A stretch of 22,886 nt of DNA, taken from a virus. Positions 4,037-20,203 of the stretch are shown here, piece by piece. Both the position numbers and the translations under genes were made by a program. The stretch covers positions 1-22,886 of the IMG/VR virus record IMGVR_UViG_3300035698_026989, one strand, 5' to 3'. Below the pieces are notes generated by a model. That model ran no database searches, was not told the DNA's origin, and saw nothing but the letters and a program-made list of their open reading frames with translations. Each line of letters starts with the position of its first letter. Position 1 is the stretch's first letter.

Positions 4037-4261
4037 ATGGCAAAAAACAAACGTTACTACAAATCATCGGGTGAAGAAGGAATGATCAAGAGCAATAAAA
4101 CAGCTTTTGCTAATATGCCACAGGAAGTAATCTTTAAGCCTTATGGTAATCCTACTTTTGGAACACCAGAAGGAATCGATGATACAATTACTGGCATAGA
4201 CCTTCAGATCACAGACGATTCTGATGAAATGAAAAAAAATACGTATGGCGGCAAGTACTAA
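4037..4261 (+). CDS. Small conserved phage hypothetical next to portal (74 aa)
   Basis: A 74-aa soluble protein starting MAKNKRYYKSSGEEGMI, with a middle FANMPQEVIFKPYG and an end GIDDTITGIDLQ followed by DEMKKNT. I recognise this pattern (Tyr-rich start, NMPQ, a GxDDxIxGID motif) as a small hypothetical that recurs beside the portal gene in podovirus-like genomes. Its function is not known to me. AAGGAG at 4025-4030 is 6 bases before the ATG. The next tiny gene begins one base after its stop, so the two are probably translationally coupled. Confidence 0.8.
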   Translation: MAKNKRYYKSSGEEGMIKSNKTAFANMPQEVIFKPYGNPTFGTPEGIDDTITGIDLQITDDSDEMKKNTYGGKY

Positions 4262-7298: not shown

Positions 7299-8276
7299 AT
7301 GAACAATACAATACTTCAACAAGGACGCTTTACTTCAGATGGTCTTCTAAAACGTCTGAATATTCGTTCTGATGTTGATTGGATAATGGTTTATAACTAC
7401 ACCCAAGCTGCAACTCAGCAAGGTGTAGGCCGTGGTGTTAAGTTTTACTGGCAGCGTGGTTTTCTTGATGGTTCTGCATTAGAATATAAAAAAGATGATG
7501 GTGTTGATACGCTTGAGATGGTTGGCGTTGAGACTGGCGGTTTTTCGTTAGTTGACTTAACCGCTAGCCCAGTTGGCGATATTGATGCAACTATTACAGC
7601 TATATCGAATGCTGCTCCCCCTGTTGTAACAATAACTGCTACTACAGCGTTATCTGATGGTGATGTTGTTAGATTGATTAATGTTGCGGGAGCTCAACAA
7701 CTCGGTGGATATGAGTTCACTATTGATGTCTTAAACGCAACTACTTTCGAGCTAGCATATATGGCTGCTATTGTTGCTGGTACAAATGGTTCATTTAGAC
7801 CTATTAAATACAATCCAATTTATTACCCACGTCGTCGTTTTGTTTCTAAAATTACACAAGCGGCTTCTGCAGTAATAACAATGACGGTAACTCATGGGTT
7901 TACTGTAGGACAAAAAGTTCGTCTTATTGTCCCAAGTGCATTTGGAATGACTGAAATGGATGGCTTAACTGCAACCATTACAGCTGTTTCGACTGATCTT
8001 GCAGCTAATACTAACTATATTACTGTTGATGTTGATTCAACTGCGTTTACCGCTTTTGCCTTCCCATTAACAGCCGATGTACCATTCTCACCAGCATTGG
8101 TGGTTCCTCTTGGAGAAGCTGCTGAAGCAAGTTATGCTAACTTACTTGATGATGCAACAAGAAACGAGAGTTACATTGGAATGGAATTAGCTGCTGGCGC
8201 TCAGTCACCAGGTGGTTCTTCTGATGATGTAATATATTGGACCGCTGGTAAGTCTTTTAGTGTTGACAACGAATAA
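7299..8276 (+). CDS. Virion structural protein, paralogue 1 (325 aa)
   Basis: A 325-aa beta-rich protein directly after the capsid gene, and one of a tandem pair with the next gene. The N-terminal part (GRFTSDG, SDVDWIMVYNYTQAA, GRGVKFYWQRG) is shared with its neighbour. It then carries two copies of a beta module of the form x-GDxVRLIN...LGGYEFTIDVLNATTFEL (about residues 95-155) and HGFTVGQKVRLIVPS...ITVDVDSTAF (about 190-245), a pattern familiar from phage virion and tail proteins. A decoration, capsid-lining or tail role is inferred from position. GGAGG at 7288-7292 lies inside the end of the capsid gene, so translation is probably coupled. No enzyme motif was seen. Confidence 0.75.
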   Translation: MNNTILQQGRFTSDGLLKRLNIRSDVDWIMVYNYTQAATQQGVGRGVKFYWQRGFLDGSALEYKKDDGVDTLEMVGVETGGFSLVDLTASPVGDIDATITAISNAAPPVVTITATTALSDGDVVRLINVAGAQQLGGYEFTIDVLNATTFELAYMAAIVAGTNGSFRPIKYNPIYYPRRRFVSKITQAASAVITMTVTHGFTVGQKVRLIVPSAFGMTEMDGLTATITAVSTDLAANTNYITVDVDSTAFTAFAFPLTADVPFSPALVVPLGEAAEASYANLLDDATRNESYIGMELAAGAQSPGGSSDDVIYWTAGKSFSVDNE

Positions 8277-8285
8277 GGGGTAATC

Positions 8286-9263
8286 ATGGCAAATGATACT
8301 CTTATTAAGAGTGGTTCTTTTATTTCTGATGGCACTTCTGAAACCATTATCTTGAGAGAATCTGTTGATTGGTTAAAAACTTGGAATGTGACACAAGCTG
8401 CACTTCAAGATACACCAGGACGTGGTGTAGATTTCTACTGGCAACGTGGTATGGCTGATGATACGGGCGTTATTACCTTTAAGGAAGATGGTACTGATAC
8501 ATTAGAAATGCTTACGCTTGCAACCGGTGGATTTACGCTACTGGAAACAGATGAGTATGATGTTGGTGCTATTGATACTACTGTTACAGATGTATCAGGA
8601 GTTGCTGTTATAACAGTAACTTCTACTGCTGCACTAAGAGATGGTGATATTGTTAGAATGATTAATTGCGTAGGAGCACAACAGCTCGGTGGTTATGATT
8701 TCAGTATCGATGTTCTCGATGGAACAACATTTCAGCTAGCATTTATGCCAGCTATAGTTGCTGGTACAACTGGTTCGTTTAGATTAATCAAATATGATTC
8801 GTTGTTTTATCCAAAACATAGAGCCATATCTAGTATAACTAAAGCAGCACATGCTGTTGTTACAATGACCGTAGCTCATGGATTTACTATAGGTCAAACA
8901 GTTCGTTTTGTTATTCCAACAGCGTTTGGAATGAGAGAGCTGAACGGCTTGACTGGAACTGTTCTTGCTGTATCTACAAATGTTGGAACAAGTGTTAACC
9001 GTATTACTGTTGATATTGATTCAACTTCATTCTCAACATTTGCGTTTCCACTAACTGCAGCAGTACCATTTTCTCCTGCATTAGTAGTTCCTATTGGGCA
9101 ATCAGCTGAAGATATTGATGGTAAAGTTTCTTTAGATGATGCAACACGCAATATTGGATTTACTGGAATTAAGTTAGGAGCTGGTGAATTAGCTCCTGCT
9201 GGTGATACTGATGATAGAATTGTATGGGTAGCAGGTAAAGCTGACTTAGTAGAAAACGAATAA
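8286..9263 (+). CDS. Virion structural protein, paralogue 2 (325 aa)
   Basis: Exactly the same length as its upstream neighbour and collinear with it. Shared landmarks are VDWLKTWNVTQAAL, GRGVDFYWQRG, DTLEML...TGGFTLL, VGAQQLGGYDFSIDVLDGTTFQLAFM, AHGFTIGQTVRFVIPTAFGM, ITVDIDSTSFSTFAFPLTA and a near-identical C-terminal PFSPALVVPIG, with DDATRN. Differences are spread throughout, so the duplication is not recent. AAGGGG at 8275-8280 overlaps the previous stop region. Two homologues in tandem may build a hetero-oligomer, or one may have been specialised for another position in the particle. The specific role was not recognised. Confidence 0.75.
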   Translation: MANDTLIKSGSFISDGTSETIILRESVDWLKTWNVTQAALQDTPGRGVDFYWQRGMADDTGVITFKEDGTDTLEMLTLATGGFTLLETDEYDVGAIDTTVTDVSGVAVITVTSTAALRDGDIVRMINCVGAQQLGGYDFSIDVLDGTTFQLAFMPAIVAGTTGSFRLIKYDSLFYPKHRAISSITKAAHAVVTMTVAHGFTIGQTVRFVIPTAFGMRELNGLTGTVLAVSTNVGTSVNRITVDIDSTSFSTFAFPLTAAVPFSPALVVPIGQSAEDIDGKVSLDDATRNIGFTGIKLGAGELAPAGDTDDRIVWVAGKADLVENE

Positions 9264-11330: not shown

Positions 11331-13514
11331 ATGGCACAAAGAGATCGTTTTTTTATAGGACCACTTAGTGCTGGTCTTGAAAGCAATGTTAAACCGTGGC
11401 TTTTGCCAGATGATGCTTTCGCTCAACTTGAAAATGCATATGTTTTTAGGGGGAGGGTTAAGAAACGTTTTGGAACATATCCTATTGCCGATGGATCAAA
11501 TATATTACCATCTAGATTACGTATTGATCTTGGAAATACAGACGTCTTTGGAGATATCGCTGGAACTGTCCCAGGAGCTATCTTTGAAGTTGGGCAGCAA
11601 TTCTCTATTGGTACTGAAATATTCACGGTAATAGCTCTCGGTACTCCTACAAATATGATCACTACAGGAGCATCTACAACTTTAACATATGATACAACAA
11701 CTGGCGCTTATGATATTCAGGGTGCGACAGCTGGAATTCCATGTTATTTTTATCCAACACAACCTGTTATGGGTTTACCAAACTATGAAGATATTTCAGT
11801 AAACTTTGAACCACTCTTTGCTTTCGACACACAATTTGCATATCAATTTTCTGGTGGAATGTGGTCTCGTCTTGGCACAGATGTCTGGACCGGGACCGAT
11901 GCAGATTTTTTCTGGTCATATAATTATCGTGATGTCGATGCTAGTCAGACATCTCTTTTTACAACTAACTTTGTTGCGGCAGACAAGATACGTTATTGGA
12001 ATGCTTTGTGGAAGACACTGAATCCAATCGCAAGAGATAGTGTTGATCCTGTAACAGTAATTACAATAGAAACATGTAGAATTATTATTCCATTCAAAAA
12101 CAGATTGTTATTTTTAAATGTTGTTGAAAAAATTAATGGTGTTGATACTGCTATTGGTAATCGCTGTCGCTTTTCTCAAAATGGCAGTCCTGTCCACGTC
12201 GACTCATGGAGAGAAGATATCCCAGGCAGAGGCAGTTATATTGATGCATCGACTAAAGAACAAATTGTAAGCGCTCGACTTATTAGAGATAGATTAATTG
12301 TTTTCTTTGAGAGAAGTACCTGGGAGCTTGTTCACACAACAAACCAAATAACACCTTTTGTATGGCAACAAATTAACTCTGAGCTTGGTGTAGAATCTTC
12401 ATTTTCGAGTGTACCATTTGATCGTGTTGTTATTGGTGTTGGTAATGTTGGTATTCATGCGTGTACTGGTGCATCAGTTGATAGAATTGATAGCAAGATA
12501 CCAGATGAAGTTTTTGCTATTCGTGAAACAAATAGCGCTACAAATCGTGTTTATGGTATACGTGATTATTTTAGTGAAATGGTATATTGGACGTTCCCAA
12601 TACGTGGATCGTTTGCGCAAAAAGTACTTGTTTATAACTATTCTTCGGGAACGTGGGCGTTTTTTGATGATTCGTTTACATGTTTTGGATACTATCAGCC
12701 AAATGATAGTAGAACATGGCAAACAAGTCCACAACAATGGATGGTTACGGGAGATCCTTGGGTAGATCCGCAATATAATGCTCGTTTTAGGAATGTTGTT
12801 GCTGGAAATCAGCAGGGCTATGTATCAGTTATTGATAATAAAAAAGCTAGCAACGCTAAGTCTCTTTCTGTAACAAATATAGCCGGCTCTCCAAATGTCT
12901 TCACAAGTGTTAATCACAATCTTTCTAATAGTGATTTTGTGTTACTTGAAGATATTGATAGTGTAGATGTGGCTGGATTTGAAAGCTTAAATGACTCAAT
13001 ATATAAAGTAACGGTTATAGATGCTGATACGTTTAATTTGGCCAAATCCACCGGTGAAATTATAGATCTCACAGACACATACAATGGTGCTGGAAATATA
13101 TCTCGCGTCAGTAAAATTGATATTGTTACTAAAGAATATAACTTCTATAGAAATCAAGGCCATACCGTTGATGTTAATAAAGTTAATTTCTATATAGATA
13201 AGACAGATTTTGGACAGATTACTATTGACTCGCTTGTATCAAGTGCATCACTTTCTCTTATAGAAGAGGGCCAGGCAACAAATTCTATTTTAGGATCATC
13301 GATTTTGGAAACATCACCATATCCTATTGTCGCTATGGAGAAGTTGCAGACTAGATTATGGCACACAGTATATATTCAAGCTGCTGGTAATGCCGTACAA
13401 TTAAGAATATATAGCTCTAATGCACAGATGTTTGATAAAGATATAGCGTTAAGCAAATTTGATATGCATGCAATGATGTTTCATGCAATGTCGGGGAGCT
13501 CTCGCTTAGATTGA
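11331..13514 (+). CDS. Tail nozzle / hub-like protein (727 aa)
   Basis: A large beta-rich protein beginning MAQRDRFFIGPLSAGLESNV, WLLPDDAFAQLENAYVFRGRVKKRFG. This start recurs in tail proteins that resemble the P22 gp10 / T7 gp12 nozzle group. The body has repeated blade-like stretches (IRYWNALWKT, RLIRDRLIVFFERSTWELV, SVPFDRVVIGVGNVGIHACTGASVDRID, KVLVYNYSSGTWAFFDDSF) compatible with a beta-propeller. Near residues 510-570 it carries a beta module ending YKVTVIDADTFNL, the same kind as in the genes at 7299 and 8286. Starts immediately at the previous stop with only GGA nearby, implying coupled translation. Ends with TGA. Confidence 0.72.
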   Translation: MAQRDRFFIGPLSAGLESNVKPWLLPDDAFAQLENAYVFRGRVKKRFGTYPIADGSNILPSRLRIDLGNTDVFGDIAGTVPGAIFEVGQQFSIGTEIFTVIALGTPTNMITTGASTTLTYDTTTGAYDIQGATAGIPCYFYPTQPVMGLPNYEDISVNFEPLFAFDTQFAYQFSGGMWSRLGTDVWTGTDADFFWSYNYRDVDASQTSLFTTNFVAADKIRYWNALWKTLNPIARDSVDPVTVITIETCRIIIPFKNRLLFLNVVEKINGVDTAIGNRCRFSQNGSPVHVDSWREDIPGRGSYIDASTKEQIVSARLIRDRLIVFFERSTWELVHTTNQITPFVWQQINSELGVESSFSSVPFDRVVIGVGNVGIHACTGASVDRIDSKIPDEVFAIRETNSATNRVYGIRDYFSEMVYWTFPIRGSFAQKVLVYNYSSGTWAFFDDSFTCFGYYQPNDSRTWQTSPQQWMVTGDPWVDPQYNARFRNVVAGNQQGYVSVIDNKKASNAKSLSVTNIAGSPNVFTSVNHNLSNSDFVLLEDIDSVDVAGFESLNDSIYKVTVIDADTFNLAKSTGEIIDLTDTYNGAGNISRVSKIDIVTKEYNFYRNQGHTVDVNKVNFYIDKTDFGQITIDSLVSSASLSLIEEGQATNSILGSSILETSPYPIVAMEKLQTRLWHTVYIQAAGNAVQLRIYSSNAQMFDKDIALSKFDMHAMMFHAMSGSSRLD

Positions 13515-14060: not shown

Positions 14061-14087
14061 AGTAGGCATATGAGAACCTACTGTTTT
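14061..14087 (+). terminator. Bidirectional terminator-like hairpin between convergent genes
   Basis: AGTAGG (14061-14066) pairs with CCTACT (14077-14082) across a 10-base loop, followed on the plus strand by GTTTT. On the minus strand the same stem contains the stop codon of the 14078-14620 gene and is followed a little later by a run of five T. It would stop both converging transcripts. Confidence 0.55.
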
Positions 14088-14620
14088 ATATACTCTAATA
14101 TAACATAGGTTGTAGTGAAACTTGATCGGTTACTTGTCGTTGTTATTTTTATGTTTGTTGTATCAACTTCTAATGATATTTGTGCTGCCGCTCCGGAAAA
14201 TGGTAATGGAATATAATTATGTCCTATGGTATCTGATGCAGCACCATATATTCTCGTAAATGTTGTATTGTTATCTATGGTTAATCCATGAGCAACTGAC
14301 TTGAGGGCACTGTTTGGAAGAGCTCCAAAGTTTATTACTTTTCTGAACACTTGCCGATAGGTTGGTGTTTGATCTGTTGTTGAAGAGAGTGCTGGATTAG
14401 GAAAAAAGAGTTGTCCATTAATAAATTCTGTTTGATCATAGTATCCGGCATCGCGAATATTTACTGATAGAGCAATATTATTTATGTTTTGGTAAAGCCT
14501 GACAAGAATATCTTTAAATTCGTCACTTGTTACATCTACATCTCGTATTTCTGAGATATCCCAAACGCTTGTTGTTGGCAAAAAAGCGCCAGTATTAATT
14601 CTCTCTTGAGCTGAAGCCAT
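14078..14620 (-). CDS. Virion-like protein on the minus strand (180 aa)
   Basis: Encoded against the surrounding late genes. N-terminal segment ERINTGAFLPTTSVWDISEI, helical EFKDILVRLYQNINNIALSVNI, then GYYDQTEFINGQLFFPNPAL, YRQVFRKVINFGALPN and a beta-rich C-terminus with TFTRIYGAASD and HNYIPLPFSGAAAQISLEV. This looks like a conserved phage structural hypothetical, but I cannot name a role. ATG 14620 is preferred over the in-frame GTG at 14623 because its AGGAG (complement of 14626-14630) is 5 bases from the ATG. It diverges from the gene at 14698 across a 77-base gap that carries a long dyad. Confidence 0.72.
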   Translation of the reverse strand: MASAQERINTGAFLPTTSVWDISEIRDVDVTSDEFKDILVRLYQNINNIALSVNIRDAGYYDQTEFINGQLFFPNPALSSTTDQTPTYRQVFRKVINFGALPNSALKSVAHGLTIDNNTTFTRIYGAASDTIGHNYIPLPFSGAAAQISLEVDTTNIKITTTSNRSSFTTTYVILEYIKQ

Positions 14621-14643
14621 CACTTCTCCTATTTTGTATAAGG

Positions 14644-14697: not shown

Positions 14698-15300
14698 ATG
14701 GCATTTTTGGGTGGTTTATTTGGTGGAGGTCAACAAAGGCAGCAGCCTCAGAGTAATCTTCCAGAAGGTTTTCAACAAATACAAAAATTTGGTCCTGAAC
14801 TTCAGGGTGCGCTTAGTCAACTTCTTCAGATGAGTATGCAAGGAATACAGGAAGGTTCTGGCGGATTTAAACCGATTGCAGAACGTGCACGAACTCAATT
14901 CAAAGAACAAACAATTCCAACGATTGCTGAACGCTTTACATCAATGGGTGGTGAAGGTGGACAAAGGGGTGGTGGATTCGCACAGTCTCTTGGTCAGGCT
15001 GGAGCTGGTCTTGAAGAAGGATTAGCTGGTATGGAGAGTCAGTATGGATTACAAAGACAGGGTCAACTACAAAACTTATTGCAGATGGGTCTTACCCCGC
15101 GTACTGAAACTACTTATCAGCAACAAGAGCCTGGTTTTCTGCAGTCTTTTGGAGCACCTATGTTACAGGGCCTTGGATCGTTAGCTCCAATGTTATTATC
15201 TGGAGCTTCTGGTGGAGCTGGTGGCATATTAAGCTTGCTTATGTCTCTTTTAGGTGGTGGCCAAGATCAAGGATCTTCACAACAATCAATGGGAGTATAA
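14698..15300 (+). CDS. Gly/Gln-rich probable internal virion protein (200 aa)
   Basis: A 200-aa protein opening MAFLGGLFGGGQQRQQPQ. A helical, Gln-rich middle follows (FQQIQKFGPELQGALSQLLQMSMQ), then IAERARTQFKEQTIPTIAERFTSMG, GGGFAQSLGQAGAGLEEGLAGMESQYG and a hydrophobic Gly/Leu-rich C-terminus (about residues 155-190). I recognise the QTIPTIAERFTSMG...LGQAGxGLEEGLA pattern from hypotheticals in podovirus-like late regions. The composition, amphipathic and glycine-rich, resembles DNA-ejection proteins such as those of P22, but that assignment is inference. It is preceded by AAGGAG and followed at once by the 386-aa gene, which it probably pairs with. Confidence 0.65.
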   Translation: MAFLGGLFGGGQQRQQPQSNLPEGFQQIQKFGPELQGALSQLLQMSMQGIQEGSGGFKPIAERARTQFKEQTIPTIAERFTSMGGEGGQRGGGFAQSLGQAGAGLEEGLAGMESQYGLQRQGQLQNLLQMGLTPRTETTYQQQEPGFLQSFGAPMLQGLGSLAPMLLSGASGGAGGILSLLMSLLGGGQDQGSSQQSMGV

Positions 15301-15301
15301 G

Positions 15302-16462
15302 ATGATACAAGTATTACCAAATCGTAGATCAGTCTCTGGTGATCTTGGCGCTGGCTTAGGGTCTGGTCTTGGTTCTGGACTCCAAGCTCTTGCTCAACAG
15401 CAAATAGAAACCATGCTAGAGCAACGCAAACAACAACAAGCTTCTACCGGGCTACAAGCTCTTGGTTTTTCTCCCGAAGAATCATCACAATTAGCTCAAT
15501 TACCACCACAAGCTTTGCAAGAAATTATTAAATACAAAGCTCAAGAGCCATCTCGTCAAGCATATGCACAATCAATTTCTGAAATTCTTGGCATGCCAGC
15601 AGAAGCTGTGCCAGGTGTACCAGAACCAGGAGCCCTAGCACCAGAGATACCTGCTCCAGGTGTACCTATTCCAGGTATCGCAGAACCAGTTGAAGAAGTT
15701 GGACAAGAAGTAATAGCAAAAAAAGCTATTAAACAAGATAGAAGAAATATTCTAGCTGGTCTTACAGAAAAGCAAGCAACTGAATTAGCTAAACTTAAAC
15801 TCCAAAAAGAAGCCCTATCTACTGCAGAAAGAAAAGAATTACGTAAAGAAAATATACAACGCGAGCGAGACGTGAAAAAAGAAACGCTTCCTATATATAA
15901 AGAAGTTAAAGATGAAGCGAAAGACGCAAGAGATAATATGAAGCGGCTTAAAAGAATGAGAGAATTAGCCTTAACGGGAAAACTTGGATCTCCTCTTTTT
16001 AATTCTCTTGCAAAATCACCACTTGTAACAAAGATTTTAGATCTTGGAGCTTTAAGAACAGCTGACGCACAAGAATTTGAGAAACTAAGTTCTGAATTTG
16101 TTAAAGGCGCAAAGAGCATTTTTGGAAGTAGAATCACCGATAATGCTTTAAAGGTGTTTATGAAAATGGTTCCAACGCTTTCTCAATCTTGTGAAGGAAT
16201 GACAAGGCTTATCGACCATCTTATGGAAGCAAACGAAGCAAGTCTTATAAGAGATAGAGCAATGAGTGATATCATTAAGAAATATAAGAAGCGACCAGAA
16301 AATCTTCAACAATTGATAGAGGAAGTTACTGAACCAGAAATTAATGAATTAGCACAGAAATTTAAAGCCCGTATGGAAGATGCTAAAGAGATGTTTGCTA
16401 TGAGCGGAAAAGAAATTCCAACTGGTGCAAAATTTGCTCAAGCAATTGGTGCTACTTATTAA
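15302..16462 (+). CDS. Helical probable internal / ejection-type virion protein (386 aa)
   Basis: The ATG at 15302 has GGGAG at 15291-15295 and lies one base after the previous stop; a longer in-frame start at 15254 would overlap the upstream gene and lacks support. Order: a Gly-rich start (GDLGAGLGSGLGSGLQAL), a Gln-rich helix, a Pro/Ala-rich linker (about residues 100-130), a long charged helical region (about 140-215), and a conserved-looking part at about 260-320 with EFVKGAKSIFGSRITDNALKVF and MVPTLSQSCEGM, which recurs in phage hypotheticals. It probably travels inside the virion with the preceding gene's product. Its last 11 bases overlap the convergent minus-strand gene at 16452. Function inferred from composition and place. 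Confidence 0.7.
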   Translation: MIQVLPNRRSVSGDLGAGLGSGLGSGLQALAQQQIETMLEQRKQQQASTGLQALGFSPEESSQLAQLPPQALQEIIKYKAQEPSRQAYAQSISEILGMPAEAVPGVPEPGALAPEIPAPGVPIPGIAEPVEEVGQEVIAKKAIKQDRRNILAGLTEKQATELAKLKLQKEALSTAERKELRKENIQRERDVKKETLPIYKEVKDEAKDARDNMKRLKRMRELALTGKLGSPLFNSLAKSPLVTKILDLGALRTADAQEFEKLSSEFVKGAKSIFGSRITDNALKVFMKMVPTLSQSCEGMTRLIDHLMEANEASLIRDRAMSDIIKKYKKRPENLQQLIEEVTEPEINELAQKFKARMEDAKEMFAMSGKEIPTGAKFAQAIGATY

Positions 16463-16631
16463 GAATGTTTTCTTTAACCGCTTCTTTTACAGAAGATTTA
16501 ACAATTGAACTAAGTAACATTATTGGAATAATGATTGGTGCTAATGCTATGCATACTAAGAGTGCCAATCCTATTCCGCAGAAAAGTCCACCAAAAAGAC
16601 AGGTAAGAAAAGTTTCGATTGCTGCAAACAT
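16452..16631 (-). CDS. 59-aa membrane protein, holin-like
   Basis: Minus-strand gene with ATG at 16631 and AGGAG (complement of 16637-16641) 5 bases upstream. The sequence starts MFAAIETFLTCLFGGLFCGI, continues hydrophobic to about residue 45 (LALLVCIALAPIIIPIMLL) and ends in a short charged tail (KSSVKEAVKENILNK). One long or two short TM helices with a charged cytoplasmic tail is the shape of small holins and of phage-encoded membrane toxins or exclusion proteins; nothing more specific can be claimed. It has its own near-consensus promoter (16687-16715) and overlaps the 3' end of the convergent 386-aa gene. The opposite-strand frame at 16465-16704 is the shadow. Confidence 0.7.
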   Translation of the reverse strand: MFAAIETFLTCLFGGLFCGIGLALLVCIALAPIIIPIMLLSSIVKSSVKEAVKENILNK

Positions 16632-16751: not shown

Positions 16752-17006
16752 TTAACTTACTATATACGCTAATAGTAAAGACATAATAATTAGTCCTGCA
16801 AGCAATGATAGTCGTGTATAGAGAGTTTTAAAGCTTTTACGTTTATTACGTTCTTTTTCTTTAAGCTTTGGTTTTTTCATGTGGTTGGTATAACATTCAC
16901 GATTGCAAAACTTACGATTCTTCCTGTTTTTTGTTATCACAAAAGATCTTTTACAATAGAGACATTTACGCATTTTATGCATATAACTACTACCGTCTTT
17001 TATCAT
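16752..17006 (-). CDS. Zinc-ribbon protein with C-terminal TM helix (84 aa)
   Basis: Reads, from the chosen ATG, MIKDGSSYMHKMRKCLYCKR and on. Four Cys form CX2C-X15-CX3C (CLYC, then FCNREC), a zinc ribbon. A Lys/Arg-rich linker (KKPKLKEKERNKRKS) follows, then a single hydrophobic helix at the extreme C-terminus (LSLLAGLIIMSLLLAYIV). So it is a probable tail-anchored cytoplasmic zinc-binding protein. Start uncertain: ATG 17006 has GGAGA about 9 bases upstream and overlaps the end of the regulator gene; ATGs at 16982 and 16973 are alternatives that keep both motifs. No family recognised. It probably shares a transcript with the upstream ribbon-helix-helix gene. Confidence 0.7.
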   Translation of the reverse strand: MIKDGSSYMHKMRKCLYCKRSFVITKNRKNRKFCNRECYTNHMKKPKLKEKERNKRKSFKTLYTRLSLLAGLIIMSLLLAYIVS

Positions 17007-17157
17007 TGTTAATCTTCTCCACAATAGCTTGAATGATGAACGAAGACATCGTCATTCCATATTCTGTAGAATTTATCTTGATCATTTTATGAAATTCCGA
17101 CGGCACGTTAACTACCAATCGACTGTTTTTACCTTTTTTTCCTATCTTTATGTCCAT
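16990..17157 (-). CDS. Ribbon-helix-helix (Arc/CopG-like) regulator, 55 aa
   Basis: A small DNA-binding protein: a basic start (MDIKIGKKGKNSR), a beta strand RLVVNVP, helix A (SEFHKMIKINSTEYGM), a turn, and helix B (TMSSFIIQAIVEKIN). This is the Arc/CopG fold order at the usual length; dimers use the strand to read an operator. I choose ATG 17157 over an in-frame ATG at 17250 because the extra 31 residues look non-coding and because promoter and operator signals abut 17157. There is no ribosome binding site before it; a 7-bp inverted repeat touches the start codon, so autoregulation and a leaderless mRNA are likely. Confidence 0.75.
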   Translation of the reverse strand: MDIKIGKKGKNSRLVVNVPSEFHKMIKINSTEYGMTMSSFIIQAIVEKINNDKRR

Positions 17158-17173
17158 ATGTACAAATGTACAT
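17158..17173. promoter_or_regulatory. Operator-like palindrome at the regulator start
   Basis: ATGTACA, two bases, TGTACAT: a perfect 7-bp inverted repeat adjoining the start codon (17155-17157, minus strand) and covering the likely -10. Size and position fit a binding site for the ribbon-helix-helix protein encoded right next to it. Confidence 0.7.
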
Positions 17174-17193
17174 GAAGTGAAACTCTTTGTCAA
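17165..17193 (-). promoter_or_regulatory. Promoter of the regulator gene
   Basis: On the minus strand: TTGACA (complement of 17188-17193), a 17-bp spacer and TACATT (complement of 17165-17170; 4 of 6 consensus). The start would fall at about 17158, right at the ATG, so the message would be leaderless. Confidence 0.6.
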
Positions 17194-17275
17194 GAGAAGT
17201 CTCAATGTAGTAGGATGACAGAAGAGGCGTAATTGTCGGGTAAAATTCATATGTATTTTTTATAAGGAGATTTTA

Positions 17276-20203
17276 ATGGCTGTTAGACAAACAAAAATTC
17301 AATTAGCCTATGGTATAGGTGACGATGTAATTCAAGTCCCGCCAGCACCTATTTTGGCTGAACGTGACCCAACGACAAGAGATTATGCACAGCTTGGTAC
17401 GTTTTGGGTTAATAAATCAGCTGATTCTGTATGGTGTATTACCAGTATTGTTTCAAATGTTGCAACATGGTCTACAAGTCCTGCATCTGGAGTTGGAACA
17501 TTTACATCGGTTGAAATCGATGGAGGTGATTTACACTGTATTAATGCAAGTGATATTTTAGTAGATAATGGCAATCTTACACTTACCGCAGGAAATCTAA
17601 GCGTTGGTGGCAATGTAACAATCGTTGGTGATTTAGATCTAACGGGTGACTTTGATATTACAAGTGCAGATGCTGTTTCGATAACATCAACAAAAGACGC
17701 TGCACAAGCACTTTATTTCCACGCTAACGGTGGAACATCAGAAACAATAGATATACATTCTGATCAAGGTACGGCTGTAAATTCAGTCAATGTACATTCT
17801 GATGTTGGTGGAATAACACTTACAGCAAATGGACTCGCATCTGATGATGCAATTAATCTTAGAGCTATTGCTGGTGGAATTGATCTTGATGGAGCAATGC
17901 AAGTTAATATTGCAAGTTCTGAAGATACCGCTGATGCTATTTCTATTAACGCATCTGCTGGTGGAATGGAACTTATTGCAGCTGGCGCCGCAGCTGAAGA
18001 TATTGTTATAACAAATACAGCTGGTTCGGTCATAATTACTGGTGGAGAAGTTACTACAGCTGACGCAGTAGTTATTCAAGCATCAGCTGCTGATGGTGGA
18101 GTTACTATTAAAGCTGGTTCTGCTGGTATTTTAATTGGTAACGAAGCTGATACAGCTATTATAAGCGCTGGTGATATTGCCCCAACTGCAAGTAGAACAA
18201 TTACTGTTGGTGGTGGCACAGTTGTAACAGCTGCCGTAACAGATACCATTGATATTGGTGTTGACGGTGCAACAACAAATGCTAACTCTATTAAGGTAGT
18301 AAATGTTGGCACCGGTGCTGTTACAACTGGTGAAAATAATATTAACATTGGCACAGGAACAGCAGCCTCGGGTACAAATGCAGTAAGCATTTCTACAGGA
18401 ACTGGCGGCGGAACAAAGACTGTTGATGTTGGTAACGCTGATGGCCTTACCACAATCAATATTGATGCAATTGCATTAATAAATGACAGCCTAAATGTAA
18501 ACACGAGTATTAATACTGGCACAAGTACTGGTGCAGTTGCGATTGGTAATGCTGCTGCCGGAGCACTTACTTTTGATACAGCAGCTGGTATATCTCTTGA
18601 TGGTGCTACCGCTTCTAACTTTACCGTTACGGGTGCTAGCGCAGACTTAACTCTCGCATCAACCGGTGGCTCAGTTAATATCTCTGCTACAGAAGCTGTT
18701 GCAGATGCTATTGTTATTGATGCATCTGACGCAGCTGGTGGTATTAATGTTTCGTGTGGAACAAATGGTATTACCATTGATTCAACCGCAGGATTTTCTA
18801 TTGATGGTGCTACGGCTTCAAATGTAACCGTTACGGGAGCAAGTGAAGATTTAACAGTTCTATCGACAGGTGGTTCGGTTAATATTAGCGCTACTGAGGC
18901 AGTTGGTGATGCAATAGTAATTAATGCTACTGCAGGCGGTGTTGAAATTACTGGTACAGGAGCTGCTGGTGACGATGTTGATATTGTTTCTTTAAATTCT
19001 TCAATAAAGATCATAGCGAACGAAGACGTGTCTGATGCAATAGTAATTAATGCTACTGCTGGTGGTGTCGACATTACTGCTTTAGGTGGCGCTGGCGAAG
19101 ATATTGATATATCTAATACGAATGGTTCAGTTAATATTGCTAGTGCAGAAGCCGTTGGTGATGCAATAGTTATAGATGCCTCTAACGCTATTGGCGGTGT
19201 TCAGATAAAAGCAGGTACTGGTGGAATATCTATCGGTAACGAAGCTGACACAACACCTATTGACATTGGCGACATTGCTCCTACCGCAAGTAGAACAATT
19301 ACCGTTGGTGGTGGCACAGTAGTAACCGCAGCCGTTACAGATACAATCGACATTGGTGTAGATGGCGCAACAACAAACGCTAACTCCATTAAAGTAGTTA
19401 ATGTTGGTACAGGTAATGTAGCGACTGGTGAAAACAATGTTAACATTGGCTCGGGAACAGCTGCTTCAGGTACACACGCAGTTAACGTTTCTACGGGAAC
19501 TGGTGGTGGAACTAAAACCGTTAATGTTGGTAATGCTGATGGTCTTACAACCGTTAACATTGACGCAATCACCTTAATCAATGACAGTATTAATGTTAAT
19601 ACAAGTATTAACACTGGCTCGAGTACAGGAGTTGTTGCCGTTGGTAACGCTGCTGCCGGTGCTATTACCGTTGATACAGCTGCAGGCATATCTCTCGATG
19701 GTGCCACAGCTTCTAATTTCACGGTAACTGGCGCAAGTGAAGACTTAACGCTTGCATCAACCGGTGGCTCAGTAAATATTACAGCTACTGAAGCTGCGGC
19801 AAATGCTATCGTTATCGATGCATCTGATGGCGCTGGTGGAATTGATCTTACTGCTGGAACAGGTGGAATTGATCTAGCTGCTGCTGGTATTGTAACTATG
19901 ACTCCTGCAACTGCTTCGGCAGCCGGTGTAGCAGTTACTATCAGTGCAAATGCAGGTGTTGGAACCTTTACGGGACAAACAACTGCTTCAGCTGCTTCGC
20001 AAGTGTTTACTATTACTAATACTATTTGTACTGTTGGTTCAGCTATTCTTGTATCAGCAAGTAATCTTGGTGCTAACGATGCACAAATGACGGTTACTCG
20101 AGTGACTCCAGGAGCTGGATCATTCACCGTAACATTAACTAATAATGGTGCGGCAGCCTTGAATGGTGATGTAATTATCACTTTCTGGATGATTGCAGCT
20201 TAA
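17276..20203 (+). CDS. Large repetitive tail fibre protein (975 aa)
   Basis: Fibre or adhesin of the virion. N-terminal domain about residues 1-75 (AERDPTTRDYAQLGTFWVNK, VWCITSIVSNVATW) is typical of particle-attached fibres. It is followed by a long shaft of short beta repeats rich in Gly, Ala, Thr, Asn and Asp (GGxxIxxxxxAxDAIxIxA units), suggesting a beta-helix or stacked beta-roll. The final 95 or so residues form a distinct C-terminal beta domain (VGTFTGQTTASAASQVFTITN, MTVTRVTPGAGSFTVTLTNNGAAALNG). About 275 residues are present twice, 366 residues apart. AAGGAG at 17264-17269. It stands divergent from the regulator gene. Host-receptor contact is inferred. Confidence 0.8.
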   Translation: MAVRQTKIQLAYGIGDDVIQVPPAPILAERDPTTRDYAQLGTFWVNKSADSVWCITSIVSNVATWSTSPASGVGTFTSVEIDGGDLHCINASDILVDNGNLTLTAGNLSVGGNVTIVGDLDLTGDFDITSADAVSITSTKDAAQALYFHANGGTSETIDIHSDQGTAVNSVNVHSDVGGITLTANGLASDDAINLRAIAGGIDLDGAMQVNIASSEDTADAISINASAGGMELIAAGAAAEDIVITNTAGSVIITGGEVTTADAVVIQASAADGGVTIKAGSAGILIGNEADTAIISAGDIAPTASRTITVGGGTVVTAAVTDTIDIGVDGATTNANSIKVVNVGTGAVTTGENNINIGTGTAASGTNAVSISTGTGGGTKTVDVGNADGLTTINIDAIALINDSLNVNTSINTGTSTGAVAIGNAAAGALTFDTAAGISLDGATASNFTVTGASADLTLASTGGSVNISATEAVADAIVIDASDAAGGINVSCGTNGITIDSTAGFSIDGATASNVTVTGASEDLTVLSTGGSVNISATEAVGDAIVINATAGGVEITGTGAAGDDVDIVSLNSSIKIIANEDVSDAIVINATAGGVDITALGGAGEDIDISNTNGSVNIASAEAVGDAIVIDASNAIGGVQIKAGTGGISIGNEADTTPIDIGDIAPTASRTITVGGGTVVTAAVTDTIDIGVDGATTNANSIKVVNVGTGNVATGENNVNIGSGTAASGTHAVNVSTGTGGGTKTVNVGNADGLTTVNIDAITLINDSINVNTSINTGSSTGVVAVGNAAAGAITVDTAAGISLDGATASNFTVTGASEDLTLASTGGSVNITATEAAANAIVIDASDGAGGIDLTAGTGGIDLAAAGIVTMTPATASAAGVAVTISANAGVGTFTGQTTASAASQVFTITNTICTVGSAILVSASNLGANDAQMTVTRVTPGAGSFTVTLTNNGAAALNGDVIITFWMIAA
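17920..18744 (+). repeat. Internal duplication of the 975-aa fibre, copy 1
   Basis: Aligns with 19018-19842 at a constant offset of 1098 bp (366 codons). The best-conserved part begins at GNEADT and includes TASRTITVGGGTVVTAAVTD and ATTNANSIKVVNVGTG, unchanged between copies. Many third codon positions differ, so the protein, not the DNA, is conserved. The edges are approximate because the outer parts are diverged. Confidence 0.8.
19018..19842 (+). repeat. Internal duplication of the 975-aa fibre, copy 2
   Basis: Partner of 17920-18744. Between the copies, a shorter 204-bp step repeats the unit starting DGATASN, which occurs at 18599 and 18803 and again at 19697. Confidence 0.8.

Follow-up and report, generated by a model that had tools for sequence, protein, structure and literature searches.

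An Arc-like regulator gene with a predicted leaderless, self-repressed start in the tail module of uncultivated phages

Autorepressors of the ribbon-helix-helix (RHH) type are classical. Leaderless repressor messages have, to our knowledge, been noted since lambda cI, and the bacterial cases known are few. For phages, they are established for lambda cI as well as PY54 cI and cro; both PY54 starts were located by RACE, and PY54 Cro binds a 16-bp palindrome upstream of cI (excerpted account in PMC4488713). The locus described here resembles lambda cI (transcribed from PRM) and the PY54 genes in that a phage repressor message would start at its own AUG. However, those genes encode lambda-type CI/Cro repressors of an immunity region, whereas here an Arc-like RHH protein is encoded antisense within a tail module and the palindrome lies directly against the ATG. 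PaaR2 of a cryptic prophage of E. coli O157:H7, leaderless by 5' RACE and mass spectrometry and with divergent promoters within a short intergenic region, is likewise a leaderless regulator gene (a prediction in our case) but differs in governing a toxin-antitoxin locus as a different regulator, described as cI-like in gene structure (excerpted account in PMC8630535). In Rhodobacter sphaeroides, acuR is the leaderless, self-regulating first gene of acuR-acuI-dddL with an inverted repeat overlapping its promoter, and it is translated far less than the genes that follow (excerpted account in PMC3017554); AcuR differs from the regulator studied here in being a ligand-responsive, chromosomally encoded member of the TetR family. 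Arc of phage P22, CopG and omega share the small RHH fold, with Arc as the nearest PDB sequence to our family profile, but their operators and genes are unlike those of our regulator, and no leaderless RHH phage repressor, these three included, was found in the literature searched, of which coverage was partial. Leaderless repressor genes are thus already known, and the regulator here appears to be a further example, of the Arc-like RHH type.

The window, i.e., the whole stretch of viral DNA that we analysed, comprises 22,886 nucleotides. Its features of concern here are the following:

16990-17157, minus strand: RHH (Arc-like) regulator gene of 55 aa, starting with ATG and lacking a Shine-Dalgarno sequence (SD) (profile and structure-model matches)
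17157-17158, minus strand: predicted transcription start, at the A of the ATG or the preceding base (from the -10 spacing)
17158-17173: operator-like palindrome ATGTACA-TT-TGTACAT in minus-strand reading, flush with the ATG (putative site, from sequence)
17159-17172: conserved 14-bp operator core within the palindrome (alignment with relatives)
17165-17170, minus strand: -10 hexamer TACATT, lying in the palindrome (promoter scan)
17188-17193, minus strand: -35 hexamer TTGACA, with a 17-nt spacer (promoter scan)
16752-17006, minus strand: overlapping ORF, 84 aa, SD-led, with a CxxC zinc-ribbon-like region followed by a hydrophobic segment (sequence)
16452-16631, minus strand: hydrophobic ORF, 59 aa, SD-led (sequence)
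17276-20203, plus strand: divergent tail-fibre-like gene, 975 aa, marker of conserved synteny (translation, relatives)

A sequence-only reading of this DNA had pointed to a palindrome that ends flush with the ATG at 17157 and covers the -10 of a TTGACA-17-TACATT promoter, and to the lack of a ribosome binding site that nearly all neighbours have. Both observations hold. The promoter runs from 17193 to 17165 on the minus strand and matches 10 of 12 consensus positions in our scan, with just 4 of 6 in its -10 TACATT. Seven bases (TGTACAT) separate this hexamer from the A of the ATG, so that a sigma-70 polymerase would be expected to start at this A or one base earlier. An SD match of at least 4 nt is found for 20 of the 22 other genes of the window (the exceptions being those at 4245 and 11331) and is missing from the gene at 17157.

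The assignment of the encoded protein to the Arc/CopG type, implied in that reading, is supported by both sequence and fold. The window protein passes the Pfam cut-off for no family but matches phrog_582 ("Arc-like repressor"; E 2.4e-4), which is matched by 15 of the 18 members of alignment A1, and Arc is the best match when the family profile is compared with PDB sequences (E 2.4e-6). The AlphaFold model (pLDDT 88.2) has helices at residues 20-32 and 37-54 and agrees with the strand-helix-helix fold of RHH repressors, with Arc, CopG and other RHH chains as its top matches. In Foldseek, the top match is the Arc-operator complex, albeit a weak one (E 0.018, with no match below 0.001), and a second structural comparison returned RHH chains throughout (Z up to 7.1), Arc, CopG and omega among them. 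Since the RHH strand pairs in the dimer only, the monomer model shows just the helices. RHH antitoxins also appear among the structural matches; the RHH core takes up most of the 55 residues and therefore leaves little space for a C-terminal toxin-binding tail.

The exact palindrome, ATGTACAAATGTACAT on the plus strand at 17158-17173, occurs only once in the record, and copies with up to three mismatches are not enriched (3 found against 2.21 expected), so that the search for further copies proposed earlier yielded one exact copy at the regulator start and inexact ones at chance level. By itself, the palindrome is statistically borderline (p in its own 73-base region 0.016 with 60 shuffles or 0.07 with 300), and its significance is carried by its exact position and its conservation. 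A chance palindrome with no regulatory role would be in keeping with a local p of 0.02-0.07 and with the 25 perfect inverted repeats of this kind in the window (arm of at least 7, spacer 0-6; ca. one per 0.9 kb). Given these comparable repeats, the window alone is weak evidence, and its relatives decide.

Neither viral contigs nor phage records yielded a homologue when searched with the 55-aa protein, and none were found for the neighbour at 15296-16459 either. We therefore used the 727-aa tail gene at 11331-13514 as query, through which 35 loci were found, joined by the best 80 of at least 575 by alignment and by two MAG contigs, i.e., 117 loci including the window and 102 after removal of redundancy. 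The MAG contigs of the tail-gene relatives L237 and L238 are labelled Methylococcaceae and Parachlamydia, with binning errors possible. An RHH gene (E <1e-3) was recognised at 52 of the 102 loci of this sample, which includes the best 80 of at least 575, on the minus strand every time and 2.5 to 7.0 kb beyond the tail gene; where at least 7 kb of sequence follow the tail gene, 38 of 42 loci have it. A lysogeny role of the regulator was considered and found unsupported: a search of 20 virus records (fragments) for integrases of the tyrosine type came up empty, and a lysogeny switch is hence not indicated.

Three relatives share the unusual start region. L003 and L162 were reached through the tail gene independently of the motif, while L256, whose RHH gene likewise adjoins a tail-fibre-like gene, was reached by the DNA motif itself. 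Their promoters read TTAACA-17-TACATT (L003), TTGACA-17-TATATT (L162) and TTGCAA-18-TACATT (L256, with a weak -35), each followed by seven bases to the ATG and lacking an SD, so that all four genes combine an ATG, no SD and a -10 about 7 nt from the start codon. This recurrence backs the leaderless message predicted earlier, with the start itself being what we infer. A quick tail-gene tree, for which the slower and more careful search is incomplete, pairs the window with L003 at 100, places L256 on a very long branch and requires three changes for the four rows of predicted leaderless genes, so that it does not show them to form a single clade.

The window, L003 and L256 agree at every base of the 14-bp operator core, and L162 carries a C to T change and, at the mirror position, a G to A change, which together retain the dyad. 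Across all six pairs, 12-14 of 14 core positions are identical, against 3-7 of 14 in the spacer and 6-14 of 27 coding bases from +4 to +30. A core kept amid such diverged flanks, together with a symmetric, compensated change, leaves a chance palindrome highly improbable. Each of the four contigs has a single exact operator, always at the regulator's own promoter, with one additional one-mismatch site elsewhere in each of the L003 and L162 contigs; this fits a local autorepressor.

The relatives also bear on the reading that the protein really begins upstream, in a frame that is open to an ATG at 17250, and that the palindrome is coding sequence (CTFVH). The upstream frame is open for 34 codons in the window and 30 in L003, and CTFVHM is common to both. 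However, the ATG at 17250 has no SD, and L003 offers one TTG; in L162 and L256, the frame ahead of the flush ATG is open for 6 or 9 codons, none of them an ATG, GTG or TTG, which fixes the flush ATG as the start there. Moreover, the L162 operator changes are symmetric in the DNA yet alter the residues (CIFIH). We consider such an upstream start hardly credible.

How unusual the promoter position is can be gauged from controls. A promoter score of at least 6.95 at leaderless distance, a threshold fixed afterwards as the lowest of the four genes, is reached by 4 of 4 compared with 5 of 1467 control ORFs (at least 100 aa; promoter weights being approximate) and none of 47 other RHH genes, excluding two with fewer than 45 bases upstream. 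The same threshold is passed by 3 of 370 control ORFs without an SD, and a score of at least 10 is reached by the window and L162 compared with 0 of 1467 controls. Palindromes with an arm of 6 stand flush with the start in 15 of 1467 controls and in no other RHH gene.

Alternatively, the gene could be self-repressed but leadered, with transcription starting upstream and SD-less initiation at the ATG behind an unstructured, A/T-rich leader. Starts without an SD do exist, and a match of at least 4 nt is found in 38 of the 52 RHH genes; only three of the other 14 are predicted to be leaderless (some starts being uncertain), so that a missing SD alone is not diagnostic. However, for each of the four genes the top-scoring promoter places the start at the ATG, with next-best promoters scoring 5.1 in the window and 6.4 in L162 and a close runner-up in L003 (7.3 against 7.1). 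We regard a leadered message as unlikely, though less so than any other alternative discussed here.

The other RHH genes of the group mostly have SD-bearing predicted leaders of ca. 10 to 60 nt with different palindromes, e.g., TGTACAC-NNN-GTGTACA over TACAAT in L182 and L211, CCACTAT-GTTT-ATAGTGG over TATAGT in L009, or TTTGTACGTACAAA upstream of the gene in L028. The median palindrome p is 0.226 in RHH upstream regions (n=44) compared with 0.53 in controls (n=176, at most four sense ORFs per locus; Mann-Whitney p=0.0004). These 44 of 53 regions include the added L256 and leave out L036 and L183 as near copies, L031, L215, L236 and L176 as fusions or for unsure starts, and L177, L187 and L193 for too short upstream DNA. 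In addition, TGTACA is found upstream of 8 of 43 RHH genes compared with 17 of 664 controls, and TTGACA upstream of 8 of 43 compared with 10 of 664. With palindromes enriched and both hexamers over-represented, a self-operator seems to be general across the RHH group, while the leaderless form seems confined to some lineages. In four loci (L031:16317-16910, L215:17236-17691, L233:16478-16951 and L236:10263-10817), an HNH_3 endonuclease domain (E 7e-12 to 0.007, with the L215 match below the cut-off) is followed by the syntenic RHH in one frame, which suggests homing endonucleases with the RHH as DNA-binding part.

Motif scans show that the start region alone does not identify such genes. Among the matches listed for a loose pattern (TGTACANNTGTACAN{0,3}ATG), an RHH gene was found, besides the window, in one contig only (L142, the contig of L003), and the motif by itself is thus no predictor of RHH genes. 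A tighter scan returned 27 stretches, three of them with an RHH gene at the flush ATG (L142, again that of L003; L240, the contig of L162; and L256). Eight others (L239, L241, L242, L243, L250, L251, L259 and L261) form one homologous set that we take to be the leader of a T4-like gp32 gene, with TTGACA, 17 nt and then TATATTTATACATATG or TACATTTATACATATG: promoter and palindrome are near-identical, there is no RHH gene, and the flush ATG goes unused, the likely start being 36 nt further downstream. This near-identical string is what speaks for the palindrome being the site of a host regulator or another phage regulator instead of the RHH protein. Against this stand the sole exact copy at the RHH gene's own start in each of the four contigs and the enrichment of palindromes upstream of RHH genes generally, and we judge a foreign regulator improbable. 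The self-repression proposed in the sequence-only reading is instead favoured by this lone operator, the symmetric change in L162 and the general enrichment.

The anatomy, family, conservation and single operator per contig that are directly visible in these sequences are thus best read, and probably correctly so, as a small antisense operon whose regulator is leaderless and represses itself. The start point, binding, repression and shared transcript that we infer would combine as follows. An Arc-type RHH repressor would control a short antisense operon in the tail module of these uncultivated phages, whose portals are P22-like. RNA polymerase at TTGACA-17-TACATT would begin transcription on the A of the start codon or on the preceding base, yielding a leaderless mRNA translated from its 5'-terminal AUG. 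Two RHH dimers could occupy both halves of ATGTACA-TT-TGTACAT, spanning the -10 to the start point, and would thereby exclude polymerase and shut off both the regulator and its SD-led partner ORF.

The met boxes of MetJ are 8 bp each, and the minus strand of our palindrome can similarly be divided into two 8-bp boxes in head-to-tail order, TGTACATT and TGTACATA. Unlike in MetJ, the boxes of L162 are not self-palindromic and just the overall dyad is retained. A candidate third 8-bp operator box within the gene, in which TGGACA differs from TGTACA at one position, was dropped because it is absent from L003 and L162.

The ORF at 16752-17006, for which profile searches gave only weak endonuclease and zinc-finger matches, is the probable co-transcribed partner of the regulator. 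By analogy with the acuR operon of R. sphaeroides, the leaderless regulator may be translated weakly and its partner strongly. The 59-aa hydrophobic ORF has a promoter-like site of its own ahead of it (TTGACA-17-TATACT, minus strand, 16715-16687, 11 of 12), and up to 30 of 52 loci have an SD-led hydrophobic ORF behind the RHH gene, a count that may take in non-genes. Tentatively, and with considerable doubt, one could see in these loci a large group of uncultivated phages whose tail module almost always carries an antisense RHH cassette, frequently accompanied by a small membrane protein; the regulator of this cassette would have become leaderless in some lineages, perhaps repeatedly, with operator, -10, start point and start codon fused into a 16-bp block. 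If so, a single self-limited message would give weak translation of the regulator and strong translation of the SD-led partner, and these loci, with leadered and leaderless orthologues in the same place, would provide a natural experiment on leader loss. The comparative set brings together SD-led and predicted leaderless versions of one regulator at the same locus, with an operator dyad kept by a compensated change, and short promoter constructs could thus be used to test why leaders are lost from repressor genes.

Some further features of the window deserve mention. A second antisense ORF in the structural region (14078-14623, minus strand, 181 aa) starts with GTG behind an AGGA SD and has no Pfam match. 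The terminase-like ORF at 99-1529 contains a LAGLIDADG domain (E 2.9e-6) that is probably an intein. Finally, the adjacent ORFs at 7299-8276 and 8286-9263, of 325 aa each, have similar translations and look like tandem paralogues.
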